Assembly (NCBI RefSeq): GCF_021246445.1
Contig: NZ_JAJQXW010000001.1
Coordinates: 62,001-126,000, forward strand
Length of the DNA: 64,000 nt
Reading direction: 5' to 3'
Origin: Rhabdothermincola salaria
Lineage (GTDB): Bacteria; Actinomycetota; Acidimicrobiia; Acidimicrobiales; Acidimicrobilacustridaceae
Position numbers and translations under genes: made by a program. Each line of letters starts with the position of its first letter. Positions within the stretch are counted from its first letter, which is position 1. Shown here piece after piece: positions 2,272-62,209 of this stretch. The notes below the pieces were generated by a model, which saw only the letters and a list, made by a program, of their open reading frames with translations, had not been told where the DNA came from and made no database searches.

Positions 2272-3789
2272 ATGCCCGTGCCCGAGCAGCCCATCACCGG
2301 CGACTTCGGCACCGTGCTCGAGCTCTTCGACGCCACGGTGGAGGCCGCCGGTGAGGTCGACGCGTTCGTCGACGGCGAGCGCCGCATCACCTTCGCCGGT
2401 TGGGGCCGCGCCGCCGACGGCGTGGCCAGTCGGCTGGCCTCCATGGGCGTGGGCGTCGACGACGTCGTCGGCATCTCGCTCCCGTCGTCGATCGACTACG
2501 CCGTCGCCTACCAGGCCGTGCTGCGCCTCGGGGCCGTCGCCAGCGGCATGAACCCGCGGCTCGGGCCCTCCGAGACCGCCCACATCCTCGAACGCAGCCG
2601 ACCCCGCGTCGTGGTCACCGACGCCGACCTGCCCGGTTCGGCGCGCCGCCTCACCGTCGCCGAGCTGCGCGAGGCCGAGGCCGACCAGGTGTTCTCCGCC
2701 CGGCCGAGGCGGCACCACACCGATCCGGTGGCCATCGTCTGGACGAGCGGCACCACCGGCCGGCCGAAGGGGGCGATCTTCGATCACGGGTGCCTCGAGG
2801 CCATGGCCCAGGCCGCCGGCCCGCTCTCGCGCCCCGGCGACCGCCGTCTGTCGCCACTCCCGTTCGCCCACGTGGGCTACATGACCAGGGTCTGGGACGA
2901 GCTGGCCCACGCCATCACCACCGTGGTCATCCCCAGCCCCTGGACGGCGAGCGACGCCCTGCGCCTCATCGCCGACGAGCGGGTCACCGTGGGCCAGGGC
3001 GTCCCCGCCCAGTGGCAGATGATGCTGGCCCATCCCGATCTGGCCGGCACCGACACCTCCAGCCTGCGCATCGTCAGCACCGGCGCGGCGCGGGTGCCGC
3101 CGGAGCTGGTGCGGGCCCTGCGCACCACCTTCGGGTGCCCGGTGGTGGTGCGCTACACCTCCACCGAGGCGTGCGTGTCGACGGGGACCGCCCTCGACGA
3201 CCCCGACGACGTGGTGGCCGAGACCGTCGGCACCCCGGGCTCCGGCGTCGAGATGGAGCTGCGCGCCGACGACGGGCGGGGCCCGGTCGTCCCCACCGGC
3301 GAGGTGGGCACGGTGTGCCTGCGCAGCCGGGCCATGTTCCGGGGCTACTGGCGCGAGCCCGAGCTCACCGACGAGGCGATCGATCCCGAGGGTTGGCTGC
3401 TCACCGGCGACCTCGGACGACTCGACGAGCGGGGCAACCTGCGCCTGGCGGGTCGTTCCACCGAGATGTACATCCGGGGCGGCTACAACGTGTACCCGGC
3501 CGAGGTCGAGAACCGCCTCGGCCTGCACCCCGCGGTGCAGAAGGTGGCCGTGGTGGGCACCCCGGCCCCGGTGCTGGGCGAGATCGGGGTGGCGTTCGTC
3601 GTGGCGGCCGACGGCGCCGAGCCCACCCTCGCCGAGCTGCGCGACTGGTGTCGCGTCGAGCTGGCCGACTACAAGGCCCCCGACTGCCTGGTGCTGGTCG
3701 ACGACCTGCCGCTCACCGCCATGAGCAAGCTCGACAAGCGGGCGCTCGCCCCGGCCGCGGCCGAGGCCGAGACCGCCTGGGAACGCTGA
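2272..3789 (+). CDS. AMP-forming acyl-CoA synthetase
   Basis: This 505-residue protein belongs to the ANL superfamily. It activates a carboxylic acid to an acyl-AMP and then to acyl-CoA. The phosphate-binding loop WTSGTTGRPKG is at residues 157-167, the YTSTEACVSTG motif near 300, the adenylate-binding LLTGDLGRLDERG near 380, the hinge region GRSTEMYIRGGYNVYPAEVE near 400, and a C-terminal lysine in MSKLDKRAL. The substrate cannot be read from sequence; neighbours suggest a fatty or steroid side-chain acid. The next gene (SDR) follows after 23 bp in the same direction, so the two are probably cotranscribed. Confidence 0.93.
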   Translation: MPVPEQPITGDFGTVLELFDATVEAAGEVDAFVDGERRITFAGWGRAADGVASRLASMGVGVDDVVGISLPSSIDYAVAYQAVLRLGAVASGMNPRLGPSETAHILERSRPRVVVTDADLPGSARRLTVAELREAEADQVFSARPRRHHTDPVAIVWTSGTTGRPKGAIFDHGCLEAMAQAAGPLSRPGDRRLSPLPFAHVGYMTRVWDELAHAITTVVIPSPWTASDALRLIADERVTVGQGVPAQWQMMLAHPDLAGTDTSSLRIVSTGAARVPPELVRALRTTFGCPVVVRYTSTEACVSTGTALDDPDDVVAETVGTPGSGVEMELRADDGRGPVVPTGEVGTVCLRSRAMFRGYWREPELTDEAIDPEGWLLTGDLGRLDERGNLRLAGRSTEMYIRGGYNVYPAEVENRLGLHPAVQKVAVVGTPAPVLGEIGVAFVVAADGAEPTLAELRDWCRVELADYKAPDCLVLVDDLPLTAMSKLDKRALAPAAAEAETAWER

Positions 3790-13549: not shown

Positions 13550-13636
13550 ACCCAGACCGTACCCATCCCCACTGCGTTCGACCCGGGGCGGAGGTCACGA
13601 AACAACACGGTCGATGGGCGAACTACGGTCCCCGTG

Positions 13637-13858
13637 GTGGCCAACCACAAGAAGACCAAGAAGCCTCGCAAGGACCGGCACCCCCTGCCCAAGGTGGGCA
13701 CCCCCGCCGACGACGCCTACCGCCTCGAGCACAGCCGGCGCGACCTGGTCGACTTCGGCCTGGCCGGTCCCCGCAGCCGGGCCGTCGGTCTGATCGTCGC
13801 CGTGATCGTGGCCGTGCTGCTGGCCCTGGGCGTGCTGGGTCTGATCCTCTTCACCTGA
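13637..13858 (+). CDS. Small basic membrane protein, unknown
   Basis: A predicted 73-residue protein. The first 20 residues are rich in lysine and arginine (VANHKKTKKPRKDRHPLPK); residues about 50-70 form one hydrophobic helix (VGLIVAVIVAVLLALGVLGL), so it is likely anchored with the basic end in the cytoplasm. The start is either of two adjacent GTG codons (13634 or 13637); no strong ribosome site is visible, so this is uncertain. It is divergent from the acyl-CoA synthetase and followed by a 350-bp noncoding stretch that holds a repeat element. I recognise no family. Confidence 0.6.
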   Translation: MANHKKTKKPRKDRHPLPKVGTPADDAYRLEHSRRDLVDFGLAGPRSRAVGLIVAVIVAVLLALGVLGLILFT

Positions 13859-13886
13859 GGCTGGGCAGGCCTCCCCTCGCCGACCG

Positions 13887-14063
13887 TGTCGGGTCCTCGG
13901 GGCTCCGGCGGGTCCTGTCCCGCACCAGAACCTGACGTGCTCGGTCGCTCGGAGCGGCAGCTTCGTCGACAGCCGCCGACGACCGACGAACCCTTCGTCG
14001 ATCGCAGGCGGCGGTCGCCGAGCCGCACTCGCTCCCGTGCGCGCGTCAGAACCGGTGGTGCGG
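13887..14063 (+). repeat. 177-bp dispersed intergenic repeat, copy 1
   Basis: This 177-bp stretch matches 61111-61287 without gaps, in the same orientation, with 16 differences (161/177, 91%). The ends are inverted: ccgcacca near 13919 pairs with tggtgcgg at 14056-14063, and ctgacg pairs with cgtcag. The centre is a perfect 7-bp hairpin (cgacgaa, 3-nt loop, ttcgtcg). The whole unit therefore reads as a long imperfect palindrome. It fills most of the 13859-14208 gene-free stretch between a small membrane protein and an SDR gene. No target duplication was seen at its edges. It may be a MITE-like element, a structured RNA or the tail of a lost gene. Confidence 0.85.
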
Positions 14064-14208
14064 GCCACCCCCCGGAACCCACTCGAACCCGAAGCTGAGG
14101 GGAGCTGGTGCTGGTGACAGGCGGAGGAGCGCCAGCGACGGAGCCTCAGTCAGGTCCCGCGTTTCGGCGAAGCCGGCGGAGGGAGGCTTGCCGACCGGAG
14201 CAAAGGAA
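14064..14208 (-). other. Noncoding remainder; possible gene remnant ending in PHHRF
   Basis: Read on the minus strand this stretch is open and ends GFEWVPGGGPHHRF-stop, with the stop lying inside repeat copy 1. The minus strand at copy 2 also reads SPHHRF-stop. The frame overlaps the SDR gene and has no good start, so it is not called as a gene. A small inverted repeat (aagcc 14070 region to ggctt at 14085-14089 offset by 100, i.e. 14170-14174 and 14185-14189) follows the SDR stop and could act as its terminator. Nothing else is evident. Confidence 0.3.
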
Positions 14209-14976
14209 TTACAGCGAGAGGCCTCCGTCGACGGGGATGATGGTGCCGGTGAGGTAGCGGCCGGCACGTGAGGCCAGGAAGATGGCCGTGCCGGCCATGT
14301 CGGAGGGCTCGCCGATGCGGCCGAGGGGGACGTTGCGGCGGATCTCGTCGCCGAACGCCTCGAGGGTGGAGGCCATCATCTTCGACTCGAAGGGGCCGGG
14401 GGCGATGGCGTTGACGGTGATGAGGTCCGGCGCGAGGCGGGCGGCGAGGACCTTGGTGAGGTGGTGCACGGCGGCCTTCGACGCCGAGTACGAGTAGGTC
14501 TCGAACAGGGGCACGTGGAGCCCGTCGACCGAGCCGATGTTGATGACACGAGCGGGGTCATCGGCAGTGGCGGCCGCGGCGAGGCCGTCGCGCAGGAAGC
14601 GGGTGAGGTGGAACACGCCCTTGACGTTGAGGTCGAGCACCCGGTCCCATGCGGCGTCGTCGAAGTCGGCCATGGGTGCGCCCCAGGTGGCGCCGGCGTT
14701 GTTGACCAGGATGTCGAGGCGCCCGTCGCCGGCCGCCAACACGTCGTCGGCCAGACGCCGGCACTCGTCCTCGGTGGAGAGGTCGGCGGGCATCGCCCGG
14801 CAGGTGCCGAGGTCCGAGAGCTCGGCGGCCACCTCGTGGCAGACGTCGGCCTTGCGGGAGGAGATGACGACCTCGACGCCGGCCTCGACGAACCCCCGGG
14901 CGATCATCAGCCCGATGCCCCGGCTGCCGCCGGTGACGAGGGCGGTCTTGCCTCGCAGGTCGAACAGATCGCTCAC
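14209..14976 (-). CDS. Short-chain dehydrogenase/reductase
   Basis: A 255-residue classical SDR: TGGSRGIG at about 16-23, ISSRKAD after the second strand (NADP-type arginine), LVNNAGATWGAP, NIGSVDG with the catalytic Ser, YSYSASKAAV with Tyr and Lys, and the C-terminal LTGTIIPVDGGLSL. The pattern SVDGLHVP and the following FETYSYSASK are seen in gluconate-5-dehydrogenase/RhlG-like SDRs, but the substrate is not determined. Start is GTG at 14974-14976. Its first bases overlap the end of the SnoaL-like gene by 4 bp, so they form a two-gene operon. Confidence 0.9.
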   Translation of the reverse strand: MSDLFDLRGKTALVTGGSRGIGLMIARGFVEAGVEVVISSRKADVCHEVAAELSDLGTCRAMPADLSTEDECRRLADDVLAAGDGRLDILVNNAGATWGAPMADFDDAAWDRVLDLNVKGVFHLTRFLRDGLAAAATADDPARVINIGSVDGLHVPLFETYSYSASKAAVHHLTKVLAARLAPDLITVNAIAPGPFESKMMASTLEAFGDEIRRNVPLGRIGEPSDMAGTAIFLASRAGRYLTGTIIPVDGGLSL

Positions 14977-55696: not shown

Positions 55697-55740
55697 GTGC
55701 TTCGCGGTGCCCCGGTTGCTGCGCCTGCGGCAGCCGGTGA

Positions 55741-55890
55741 GGTGGCGGGGCTGGAGCGCCAGCGACGCCGGCAGACCGCTGTGCTCCGCGCCGCCATCGG
55801 TGGGGTGGGGCTGGGTCCCCAGTGGGGTGGTGTCAGGTGGCGGGGCTGGAGCGCCAGCGACCCCGCCACACCGCGGCGCTCCGCGCCGCC
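55741..55890. repeat. Two 55-bp direct repeats between convergent genes
   Basis: Copy A is 55741-55795 and copy B 55836-55890; they differ at five positions, and the first 26 bases are identical. Each contains a small palindrome (gctgg-agcg-ccagc), and copy B also pairs ggcgggg with ccccgcc. A similar 13-base piece (ggagcgccagcga) occurs near 14126. They fill the gap between the GNAT fusion and the acyl-CoA dehydrogenase and could act as terminators on both strands. Confidence 0.75.
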
Positions 55891-55903
55891 AACAGCAGGG
55901 CCA

Positions 55904-59890: not shown

Positions 59891-60880
59891 TCACGAGGAG
59901 GGGAGCCGGTTACCTGCCCTTCGGGATCGGGGCCCGGGCGCAGGAGGCGCGGCGGGCGGGGCTGCATCGGGAGTGGTGGGGTGGACGCCCGGCTGGTCGG
60001 GGCCGGTCTCGGCCACGACCCGGTGGAGGACCTCGCGCAGGGCTCGACCCGGCGACGACAGTAGGCCCCGGCGACGGGTGCCGAGACCGACCGACCTCCC
60101 GGGGAGGTCGTCGACCGGGATCCGCCGCCAGTCGCCGCCCAGCCACGTGGGTGCCGCGCTGGCGGGCAGGATGGCGGGGCCGAAGCCCTGGAAGGCCAGG
60201 GACGCCATGAGGCGGGTGCCGTCGACCTCGACCTGGGGGACCAGGGTCACGTCGCGGTCGCGGGCCAGGGCTTCGAGCTGGTCACGGAACGGCGAGCCCG
60301 GTGGCTCGAGGAGGATGGGCACGCCGTCGAGCGATTCGAGCGAGAGCCGGTCGTGCTCGGCGAGGGGGTGGTCGGTCGGGGTGACCAGCATGCGGTCCTC
60401 GTGGAAGAGGGGCTCGGCCTGCACGTCGGGGTCGGCGACGGGCAGCGACAGCACGGCCAGGTCGATCGTGCCGCTCGCCAGCTGCAGCAGCAGCGACGAC
60501 GTGGTGGCGTCGTGGATCACCACCTGCACCCGGGGATGGCGGGCGGCCATGGCCTCGACGAGCTCGGGGACCAACCAGCGGGCAGTCGTGCCGATGACCC
60601 CGAGGCGACCGGGGCCGGCGACCTGGTCGTGCACCGAGGCGACGTCGGCCGCGAGGGCGTCGAGCTCGCCCTGGACCCGCCGGGCCCGGGCCACCACGGC
60701 CGCGCCCTCGTCGGTGGCCTGGCCGGTGCTGCGGTCGATGAGGATCACGCCGAGCTCCTGCTCGAGGCGGGCCACGTGGGTGGAGACGTTGGACTGCACC
60801 GTGTGCAGGGCCCGGGCCGCGGCCGAGAAGCTGCCGTGCTCGGCCACGGCCAACACCGCGTTCAGCTGCCGGAGGTCCAT
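59891..60880 (-). CDS. LysR-type transcriptional regulator
   Basis: A 329-residue LTTR. DNA-binding domain DLRQLNAVLAVAEHGSFSAAARALHTVQSNVSTHVARLEQEL (in pieces) has the winged helix-turn-helix; the effector domain follows from about 90 (RLGVIGTTARWLVPELVEAM). The C-terminal 60 residues are disordered, Pro and Arg rich. I choose ATG 60880; GTG 60898 is an alternative. It precedes the carboxyltransferase, an unusual same-strand order for LTTRs, which commonly sit divergently, but the repeat-bearing gap upstream also faces the BKACE-like gene and may be its control region. Confidence 0.88.
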   Translation of the reverse strand: MDLRQLNAVLAVAEHGSFSAAARALHTVQSNVSTHVARLEQELGVILIDRSTGQATDEGAAVVARARRVQGELDALAADVASVHDQVAGPGRLGVIGTTARWLVPELVEAMAARHPRVQVVIHDATTSSLLLQLASGTIDLAVLSLPVADPDVQAEPLFHEDRMLVTPTDHPLAEHDRLSLESLDGVPILLEPPGSPFRDQLEALARDRDVTLVPQVEVDGTRLMASLAFQGFGPAILPASAAPTWLGGDWRRIPVDDLPGRSVGLGTRRRGLLSSPGRALREVLHRVVAETGPDQPGVHPTTPDAAPPAAPPAPGPRSRRAGNRLPSS

Positions 60881-60914
60881 CGCTTCCGATGATGGCACAT
60901 ATCAGAAGTAACCA

Positions 60915-61110: not shown

Positions 61111-61287
61111 TGTCGGGTCCTCGGGGTCCCGGCGGGTCCTGTCCCGCACCAGAACCTGACGTGCTCGGTCGCTCAGAGCGGCAACTTCGTCGACGATCGC
61201 CATGGGCCGACGAACTCTTCGTCGATCACAGGGGACGTTCGCCGAGCCGCACTCGCTCCCGTGCGCGCGTCAGAACCGGTGGTGCGG
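61111..61287 (+). repeat. 177-bp dispersed intergenic repeat, copy 2
   Basis: Same length and orientation as copy 1 at 13887-14063, 91% identical. The first 30 bases, the inverted ends and the central hairpin (cgacgaa-ctc-ttcgtcg) are kept; most differences cluster in the inner loop regions on each side of the hairpin. It ends 34 bp before the start of the BKACE-like gene, so it may lie in that gene's 5' region and carry its promoter. Confidence 0.85.
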
Positions 61288-61321: not shown

Positions 61322-62209
61322 ATGAACCGGGGGCCAGTCATCATCGAGGCGGCGATCAACGGATCGACCACCACCGAGCAGAACCCGAACGTGCCGCGTT
61401 CACCCGACGACATCGCGGCCGACGCGCTGGCCTGCTTCGCCGCCGGCGCGGCGATCGTGCACAACCACGCCGACGTGCAGGGCAAGCCCGACGACGTCGC
61501 CGAGAGCTACCTGGCCGGCTGGCGACCGGTGCTGCGCGAACGGCCCGACGCGCTGATCTACCCGACCCTGGCCTTCGGCGACGGCAAGGTGAGCGTCGAC
61601 CACCTGGCCGTGCTGGCCCGGGCCGAGGCCCTGCGCATCGGCATCTGCGACCCCGGCTCGGTGAACCTCGGGCGCAGCGAGGACGGCATCCCCGTCGGCG
61701 CCTTCGTCTACGCCAACAGCTTCGACGACATCGCCCACATCATGGACATCCACCACGAGCACGACCTCGGTCCGAGCTTTGCCATCTACGAGCCCGGCTT
61801 CCTGCGCACGGCCCTGGCGTGGTGGAAGGCCGGCCGGCTGCCCGCCGGGTCGATGTTCAAGTTCTACCTGTCCACCGAACGCGGCCTGATCGGGGCGCCT
61901 TTCGGCTTGCCCCCCACCCGCCAGGCGCTCGACATGTACGTGGCCATGCTCGGCGACTGCCCGGTGCCGTGGGCGGTGTCGGTGGCCGGCGGCGACGTCG
62001 TGGCGTCGGGCCTGGCCGAGCACGCCATCGAGCTGGGTGGGCACGTCCACCTGGGCCTCGAGTTCCACCACGGTGACCGCACCCCCGGCAACGTGGAGCT
62101 GGTCACCGAGGCGGTGGCTGTCTGCGAGCGGCTCGGCGTCGAGGTCGCCACATGCGACCAGACCGCCGAGATCCTCGGGCTGCCCCGCCGGGAGCACCTG
62201 ACGATCTGA
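61322..62209 (+). CDS. BKACE-like (DUF849) beta-keto acid cleavage enzyme homologue
   Basis: A 295-residue TIM-barrel protein of the DUF849 family, whose known members split a beta-keto acid with acetyl-CoA to give acetoacetate and a CoA ester, using zinc. The N-terminal Glu (IEAAINGS), PRSPDDIAADALACFAAGAAIVHNHAD in pieces with the two zinc His, and ELGGHVHLGLEF with the third zinc ligand Glu are present. The Arg and Asp that follow the same pattern in typical members (HVRVGLED) are His and Phe here, so activity may differ. ATG at 61322 directly after a GGAGG. Confidence 0.78.
   Translation: MNRGPVIIEAAINGSTTTEQNPNVPRSPDDIAADALACFAAGAAIVHNHADVQGKPDDVAESYLAGWRPVLRERPDALIYPTLAFGDGKVSVDHLAVLARAEALRIGICDPGSVNLGRSEDGIPVGAFVYANSFDDIAHIMDIHHEHDLGPSFAIYEPGFLRTALAWWKAGRLPAGSMFKFYLSTERGLIGAPFGLPPTRQALDMYVAMLGDCPVPWAVSVAGGDVVASGLAEHAIELGGHVHLGLEFHHGDRTPGNVELVTEAVAVCERLGVEVATCDQTAEILGLPRREHLTI

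Follow-up and report, generated by a model that had tools for sequence, protein, structure and literature searches.

The window, a stretch of 64,000 nt, contains two copies of a hairpin element belonging to a family that carries a conserved motif at its base. These hairpins are dispersed, their arms covary, one and the same site can be with or without an element and, outside of two amplified lineages, the elements are biased toward the sense orientation. On balance, we lean toward viewing them as mobile intercistronic hairpins of the REP/MIRU kind that, once transcribed, probably present an internal loop to a protein binding or processing RNA; the RNA function and the partner protein are what we infer from these patterns.

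The original prediction described two repeats of equal length (177 nt) and same orientation sharing 161 of 177 bases, and our recount returned exactly these values. Fourteen of the 16 mismatches are located at positions 65–128 of the pair and the remaining two at positions 17–18. Using a direct-repeat finder (seed of 16, minimum of 35 nt), three direct-repeat families were reported in the window and this pair was the sole family longer than 100 nt. The 177-nt unit holds as the extent of agreement between the two copies, but not as the border of the element: its ends are only where both copies cease agreeing, and the copies of the genome define instead a conserved hairpin of ~169 nt, from CGGCGGGTCC to CCACCC[C/A/G]CCG (Table 1).

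Table 1. Coordinates of the two hairpin copies, their parts and their neighbors in the window.
Feature	Position	Strand	Remarks
Hairpin core of copy 1 (169 model positions)	13906–14074	+	From the genome's copies and the covariance model
Conserved motif, 5′ half (CGGGTCCTGTC)	13909–13919	+	
Conserved motif, 3′ half (GCCACCC)	14064–14070	+	
Stretch of the original prediction, common to copy 2	13887–14063	+	
Downstream module (..GGAGCGCCAGCGACGGAGCCTCAG..GGAGGCTTGCCGACCGGAGCAA)	14094–14206	+	Recurs beside other own-genome copies; approximate borders, by reading
Copy 2, truncated in 3′	61111–61287	+	5′ motif at 61133–61143; 3′ GCCACCC missing
74-aa ORF upstream of copy 1	13636–13859	+	No Pfam match at E 1e-5
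Short-chain dehydrogenase downstream of copy 1, convergent	14209–14976	-	
ORF upstream of copy 2	59891–60898	-	Presumably a LysR-type regulator
295-aa ORF downstream of copy 2	61322–62209	+	Divergent with the ORF at 59891–60898

BLAST recovered 27 matching pieces in the genome that carries the window (hereafter the own genome, G000). A covariance model built from 17 own-genome copies (R1) yielded 19 matches, one being the opposite strand of copy 1, which gives 18 copies when truncated copy 2 and the shortened L016 are included. The repeat is thus neither restricted to two copies nor made of coding gene fragments, two outcomes against which the original prediction had been staked, as the copies are mostly intergenic. 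A protein-coding reading was also rejected: the L017/L018 type can be read as open, yet a stop interrupts the corresponding frame in the main type, and indels between subfamilies break it. In the copies with both ends, the core measures 168–169 nt from CGG to CCG (exceptions: L015, 166 nt; L016, 117 nt). Three subfamilies were recognized (main, L015 and L017/L018), and one stem reads UGACG/CGUCA in the main type, CUCCG/CGGAG in L015 and L017, and CCCGG/CCGGG in L018. RNAalifold identified a double change in 17 of the 54 pairs of the own-genome copies. Further modules recur next to these copies, on the upstream and downstream sides. The own-genome copies, which have a long apex, result from an amplification specific to this lineage, and many of them are probably neutral. 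At one locus of the own genome (L009, reverse strand 1250–1520), we observed tandem units of ~122 bp composed of the 5′ half of the element and another module (GTGTCCATGGCGCCCTCCTCGC...GGGACGCGG); in these units, half of the element is thus followed by a different sequence.

The inverted ends and nested pairing described originally are real: a stretch of 194 nt folds at -109.6 kcal/mol, relative to -91.9 kcal/mol (sd 4.9) for dinucleotide shuffles (z = -3.6), and 2 of 200 shuffles equalled or surpassed the native fold. The element is composed of a helix P1, GGGU/ACCC, an asymmetric internal loop, a helix P2 and an apex, where the loop contains CCU, one G-C pair and a bulged U facing a single C. 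The motif CGGGUCCUGUC...GCCACCC lies at the base of the hairpin with its halves on opposite arms, and it remains constant while P1, P2 and the apex vary, both arms changing jointly. Of the 60 model matches, 58–60 retain the columns C-GGGT-CCTGTC and GCCACCC, a conservation overstated by seeds that were partly picked by those same letters. No Rfam 15 family match overlapped any element, whether at the gathering cut-off or at permissive E-values (5, 1 and 1), and our covariance model labels stretches that Rfam leaves blank in the genomes examined.

We then analyzed the covariation of the arms. In an arm-swap test, elements were chosen by a 14-mer (GGCGGGTCCTGTCC) alone, without any pairing filter, and the pairing of each arm with its own partner was compared with that of swapped arms; this set left out five sites of genus g47 and 14 other sites lacking the downstream CCACCC. 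Across 58 elements of g47, Watson-Crick pairing was higher with the own arm for P1 (0.86 vs. 0.54) and for P2 (0.85 vs. 0.81), and ten other elements behaved similarly (P1: 0.75 vs. 0.38; P2: 0.70 vs. 0.43), with 0 of 2000 permutations reaching the observed value in each case. For 30 pattern-picked loci of the phylum, the values were 0.42 vs. 0.33 for P1 (2/2000) and 0.56 vs. 0.31 for P2 (0/2000). Pair counts in two alignments agree with this result. The first (A3) contains 28 sequences that passed a pairing filter, aligned with MAFFT with a structure set by hand: 84.8% of its cells are paired (67.8% when shuffled), 12 pairs present double changes (9.2 when shuffled; 9/500), 83 cells present double changes (28.2 when shuffled; 0/500), and pairing falls to 43–47% when the partner is shifted by one column. 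The second (A4), which was fitted to the model and comprises 60 matches, 55 of them distinct, contains 166 double-change cells (53.3 when shuffled; 0/500). The number of pair types did not exceed the shuffles in either alignment (A3: 28 vs. 25.7, 105/500; A4: 35 vs. 33.1, 143/500). The structural constraint proposed originally is therefore supported, and the absence of covariation that would have spoken against it was not found. An attempt to infer the strand from G-U relative to A-C mismatches was abandoned, since promising pooled counts were traced to few positions.

In g47, a nearly uniform core is combined with a P1 that varies among loci, a pattern suggestive of concerted evolution of the core by gene conversion. 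Pairing could be maintained without selection if arms and copies were corrected against one another by template switching or gene conversion (quasi-palindrome correction), and both this pattern and the variation of core type between species at one locus would fit such a process. However, arm correction should erase an unpaired loop, and the loop motif persists in families whose arms have no sequence in common, albeit with seeds partly chosen by the motif; we consider this explanation of the pairing unlikely.

The distribution of the family was then examined among relatives. At E 0.1, R1 found no match in the 36 other genomes of the family, and the sole congener (G001) carries a single divergent site with the 14-mer. 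Among 298 genomes of the order, R1 at E 0.01 matched only the own genome and three genomes of g47 (family f36); the hairpin detected in g47 measures 79 bp and shares the base but not the apex. The 14-mer was found 22 times in the own genome, once in G001, 25 times in G153, five times in G183, 14 times in G232 and never in G071; its reversed control was absent from all six. Across the order, 46 of 397 genomes contain the 14-mer, and the reversed control also gives scattered single matches. Reading of 25 loci with the 14-mer suggested that nine are coding (L150–L152, L154, L155, L163, L164, L171 and L172) and 16 structured (L168 with an altered 3′ half); L176–L178 were likewise discarded as coding sequence by reading. 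BLAST matches to the core in relatives were short and partial (24–68 nt; at most 8 of 98 besides G000) and were judged to be due to chance; R1 scored none of seven such loci, nor the Salinispora locus L065, better than E 0.028.

A second model (R2), built from A3 without any own-genome sequence, detected elements at E 0.01 in 39 of the 298 genomes and in 12 families (f6, f10, f11, f14, f15, f26, f30, f35, f36, f50, f55 and f59). In this survey 13 candidates were scored per genome and E-values are rough, so that copy numbers represent minimum values and some of the weakest positive genomes could be chance matches; the reading of individual matches concerned families other than f11, f50 and f55. 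R2 missed the own genome in the order-wide survey because of its long apex; among 18 fetched stretches, 17 of them from the own genome, R2 at E 0.01 finds six own-genome copies.

Beyond the order, a gapped pattern was found at 33 places in 23 of 396 genomes of the phylum, relative to 25 places in 22 genomes for the reversed control. This raw count is weak; the case beyond the order rests on arm complementarity and on genomes with multiple copies. Nine of 30 phylum loci (L223, L224, L234, L240, L242, L246 and L250–L252) present at least four of eight P1 pairs and at least five of seven P2 pairs; L241 and L249 present six of seven P2 pairs with a weak P1 (2/8 and 3/8). With these two included, the well-paired loci outside the order belong to f78, f83, f93 and f101, suggesting, less securely, that the motif recurs in four more families of the phylum. 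The pattern occurs six times in G050 (inside the order), three times in G675 and twice in G745, the control being absent from each. A high GC content and the Pup-proteasome genes of G050 suggest that this phylum is Actinomycetota and that the order lies near Acidimicrobiales. By reading, the pattern lies in coding sequence in 17 of the 30 loci, and L229 and L230 are doubtful. The pattern was also present in 31 viral contigs, only one of which (L327) was scored by R2 at E 0.001, and blastn with a 188-nt query found no match in phages or plasmids. This viral contig (IMGVR_UViG_3300036760_000384) carries an element at 2910–3017 (R2 E 0.0002).

To determine gene context, strands were assigned from a basic codon score; this score failed to detect the 74-aa ORF beside copy 1. 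For the other families, 43 model matches (four duplicates removed) were distributed as 22 (+,+), four (-,-), four (+,-), three (-,+) and ten undecided. Outside the two amplified lineages, 22 of 26 elements between codirectional genes are in sense (one-sided P = 0.00027, a value that is too small because some of the 26 are orthologous or in tandem: L246/L272, L278/L304 and two in L312), and 18 of the 22 sense elements start within 40 nt of the upstream stop. No orientation bias was observed for the 51 elements of g47 (16 (+,-), 10 (-,-), six (+,+), six (-,+) and 13 undecided), with six sense and 10 antisense elements between codirectional genes. In the own genome, with the 74-aa ORF corrected, about seven copies are between convergent genes, eight between codirectional genes (~2 sense and six antisense) and three between divergent genes.

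The sense bias is the main argument for an action in mRNA, since a DNA hairpin is indifferent to the transcribed strand. The main counter-argument is that both amplified lineages lack this bias, which fits copies that are simply tolerated there. The non-coding RNA envisaged originally is compatible with the sense bias in operons, without being proven by it. A terminator or insulator between convergent genes is very improbable: convergent pairs form the largest single class of g47 elements (16/51), but many elements lie within operons, nothing terminator-like was found at copy 1, and TTTT follows within 15 nt in just one of 55 elements, indicating that the family is not an intrinsic terminator.

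Several flanks are supported by Pfam: argC/argJ, L6/L18, S3/L16, aldehyde dehydrogenase with lactate/malate dehydrogenase, complex I genes, two proteasome subunits, the Pup ligase family with AAA, the M41 protease (FtsH), and an amino-acid kinase carrying PUA, which we read as proB. Others were named by reading their terminal sequences: rpoB-rpoC, groEL, secA-prfB, clpP and guaB-guaA. Identical sites are occupied in different families, namely rpoB-rpoC (f10 and f30) and the 3′ end of groEL (f14 and f26), the genes being identified by reading. At L148 (2935–3014), L246, L259 and L272, the intercistronic element is followed, just before the next start codon, by another small hairpin (AAAGGAAYCGGCC-loop-GGCCGRTGCTGT or a similar form), which is possibly a translation signal.

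We compared filled and empty sites at two loci. At one locus of g47, 15 genomes were aligned (22 searched). Four are filled (G232, G386, G419 and G153), with ~130 bp between two convergent genes; ten lack the element (G183, G356, G340, G416, G421, G420, G325, G273, G291 and G254), their genes abutting directly with stop codons that overlap by reading; and G208 contains another sequence. Among the filled genomes, both the core type and P1 vary from copy to copy, P1 being still mostly complementary. Flank identity to G232 is 94% for the element-less G183, 91% for G386 and 83% for G153; G183 is thus nearer to G232 than filled genomes yet lacks the element, and loss or repeated gain is possible. 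No clear target-site duplication was observed at this locus. A derivation of the P1 arms from a palindromic target was ruled out, as the empty sites contain no such arms.

At argC-argJ in family f30, one of ten genomes (G179) carries an element where relatives present an overlapping stop and start (GTGA): G204 reads CCGTGAGTGTC and G179 reads CCCGTGAGGGG...CTCGTGAGCGTC. CGTGAG flanks the element of G179 on both sides, but GTGAG is likewise found at the two gene borders of the element-less G114, so that a constraint on gene borders explains these flanks as well as a duplication does. In G065, G305 and G114, another spacer of 46–98 nt separates the matched parts. A scan of 25 flanks for duplications returned scattered 6–8-mers only, none of them convincing.

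A selfish DNA element would account for these filled and empty states, for the dispersal and lineage-specific amplification, for the lack of orientation bias in the amplified lineages and for nested and truncated copies. A transposase or recombinase would recognize its folded single strand, similarly to REP-RAYT, the ends of IS200/IS605 or attC sites, and pairing would be kept for mobility rather than for the host. The sense bias elsewhere (22/26) and the identical operon sites across different families argue against this account, as does the own genome, in which the Y1 (HUH) transposase PF01797, the one enzyme type searched, was not found (control positive in 5 of 14 genomes); we regard it as possible, if doubtful. 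In several g47 species the element forms a nested composite inside a second palindrome: at L083, L138, L161, L179, L181, L186 and L188, it lies within the arms of about CCGGCGGGGCGGCGGGC...GCCCGCCGCCCCGCCTA.

REP and MIRU are intercistronic repeats known from a few well-studied bacteria, and REP elements are thought to involve processing or protection of the upstream message. The present elements resemble the MIRU of mycobacteria in length, intercistronic position and sense orientation to the operon; a MIRU-like insertion into an overlapping stop/start would fit argC-argJ, the one operon locus examined. Relative to bacterial MITEs such as ERIC and Correia, they are similarly dispersed, hairpin-forming, non-coding and present or absent at sites, but conserved ends define MITEs and here P1 differs among copies sharing a core. 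The MITE-like nature suggested originally is thus supported by the dispersal and by sites without element at two loci, but not in the strict sense, as there is no conserved terminal repeat. The attC sites of integrons share a conserved hairpin base, a variable apex and complementary arms; the present elements differ in sitting singly between chromosomal genes and in their conserved letters (CGGGTCCTGTC/GCCACCC instead of RYYYAAC/GTTRRRY). With REP/BIME elements and RAYT (described in part in PMC12306157), the present elements share being extragenic palindromes in many copies at intercistronic or 3′ sites near stop codons, but the unit is longer (~80–170 nt vs. ~35 nt for REP) and keeps an internal loop while its arms vary. 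They are indeed repeated extragenic palindromes near stop codons. Their differences from MITEs and attC, the lack of a RAYT link in the own genome and the lack of an Rfam family suggest a variant of REP/MIRU-like elements, and no description of the motif was found in the literature searched, mostly at the level of abstracts.

Under our preferred reading of a REP/MIRU-like hairpin acting in RNA, mobile non-coding hairpins would insert between genes, and a hairpin transcribed between cistrons or right after a stop codon would act within the mRNA, where it may protect the upstream part of the message or mark a processing site; a host RNA-binding or RNA-processing protein would read the internal loop. 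The unusual points are an internal loop kept inside covarying arms, across many families and in very conserved operons. More tentatively, the fixed asymmetric loop on mobile and freely varying hairpins might constitute a phylum-wide RNA signal for transcript ratios within operons, repeatedly installed in core operons, namely those of rpoB-rpoC, ribosomal proteins, the respiratory complex I, the proteasome and the chaperonin, and read by a conserved putative RNA-binding or RNA-processing protein. If confirmed, a single motif would provide clear access to the binding partners of such elements and to their mode of mobility.

Finally, the window contains two 69-nt direct repeats, 95 nt apart and 86% identical (55737–55900), which include GGAGCGCCAGCGAC, also present in the downstream module of copy 1.
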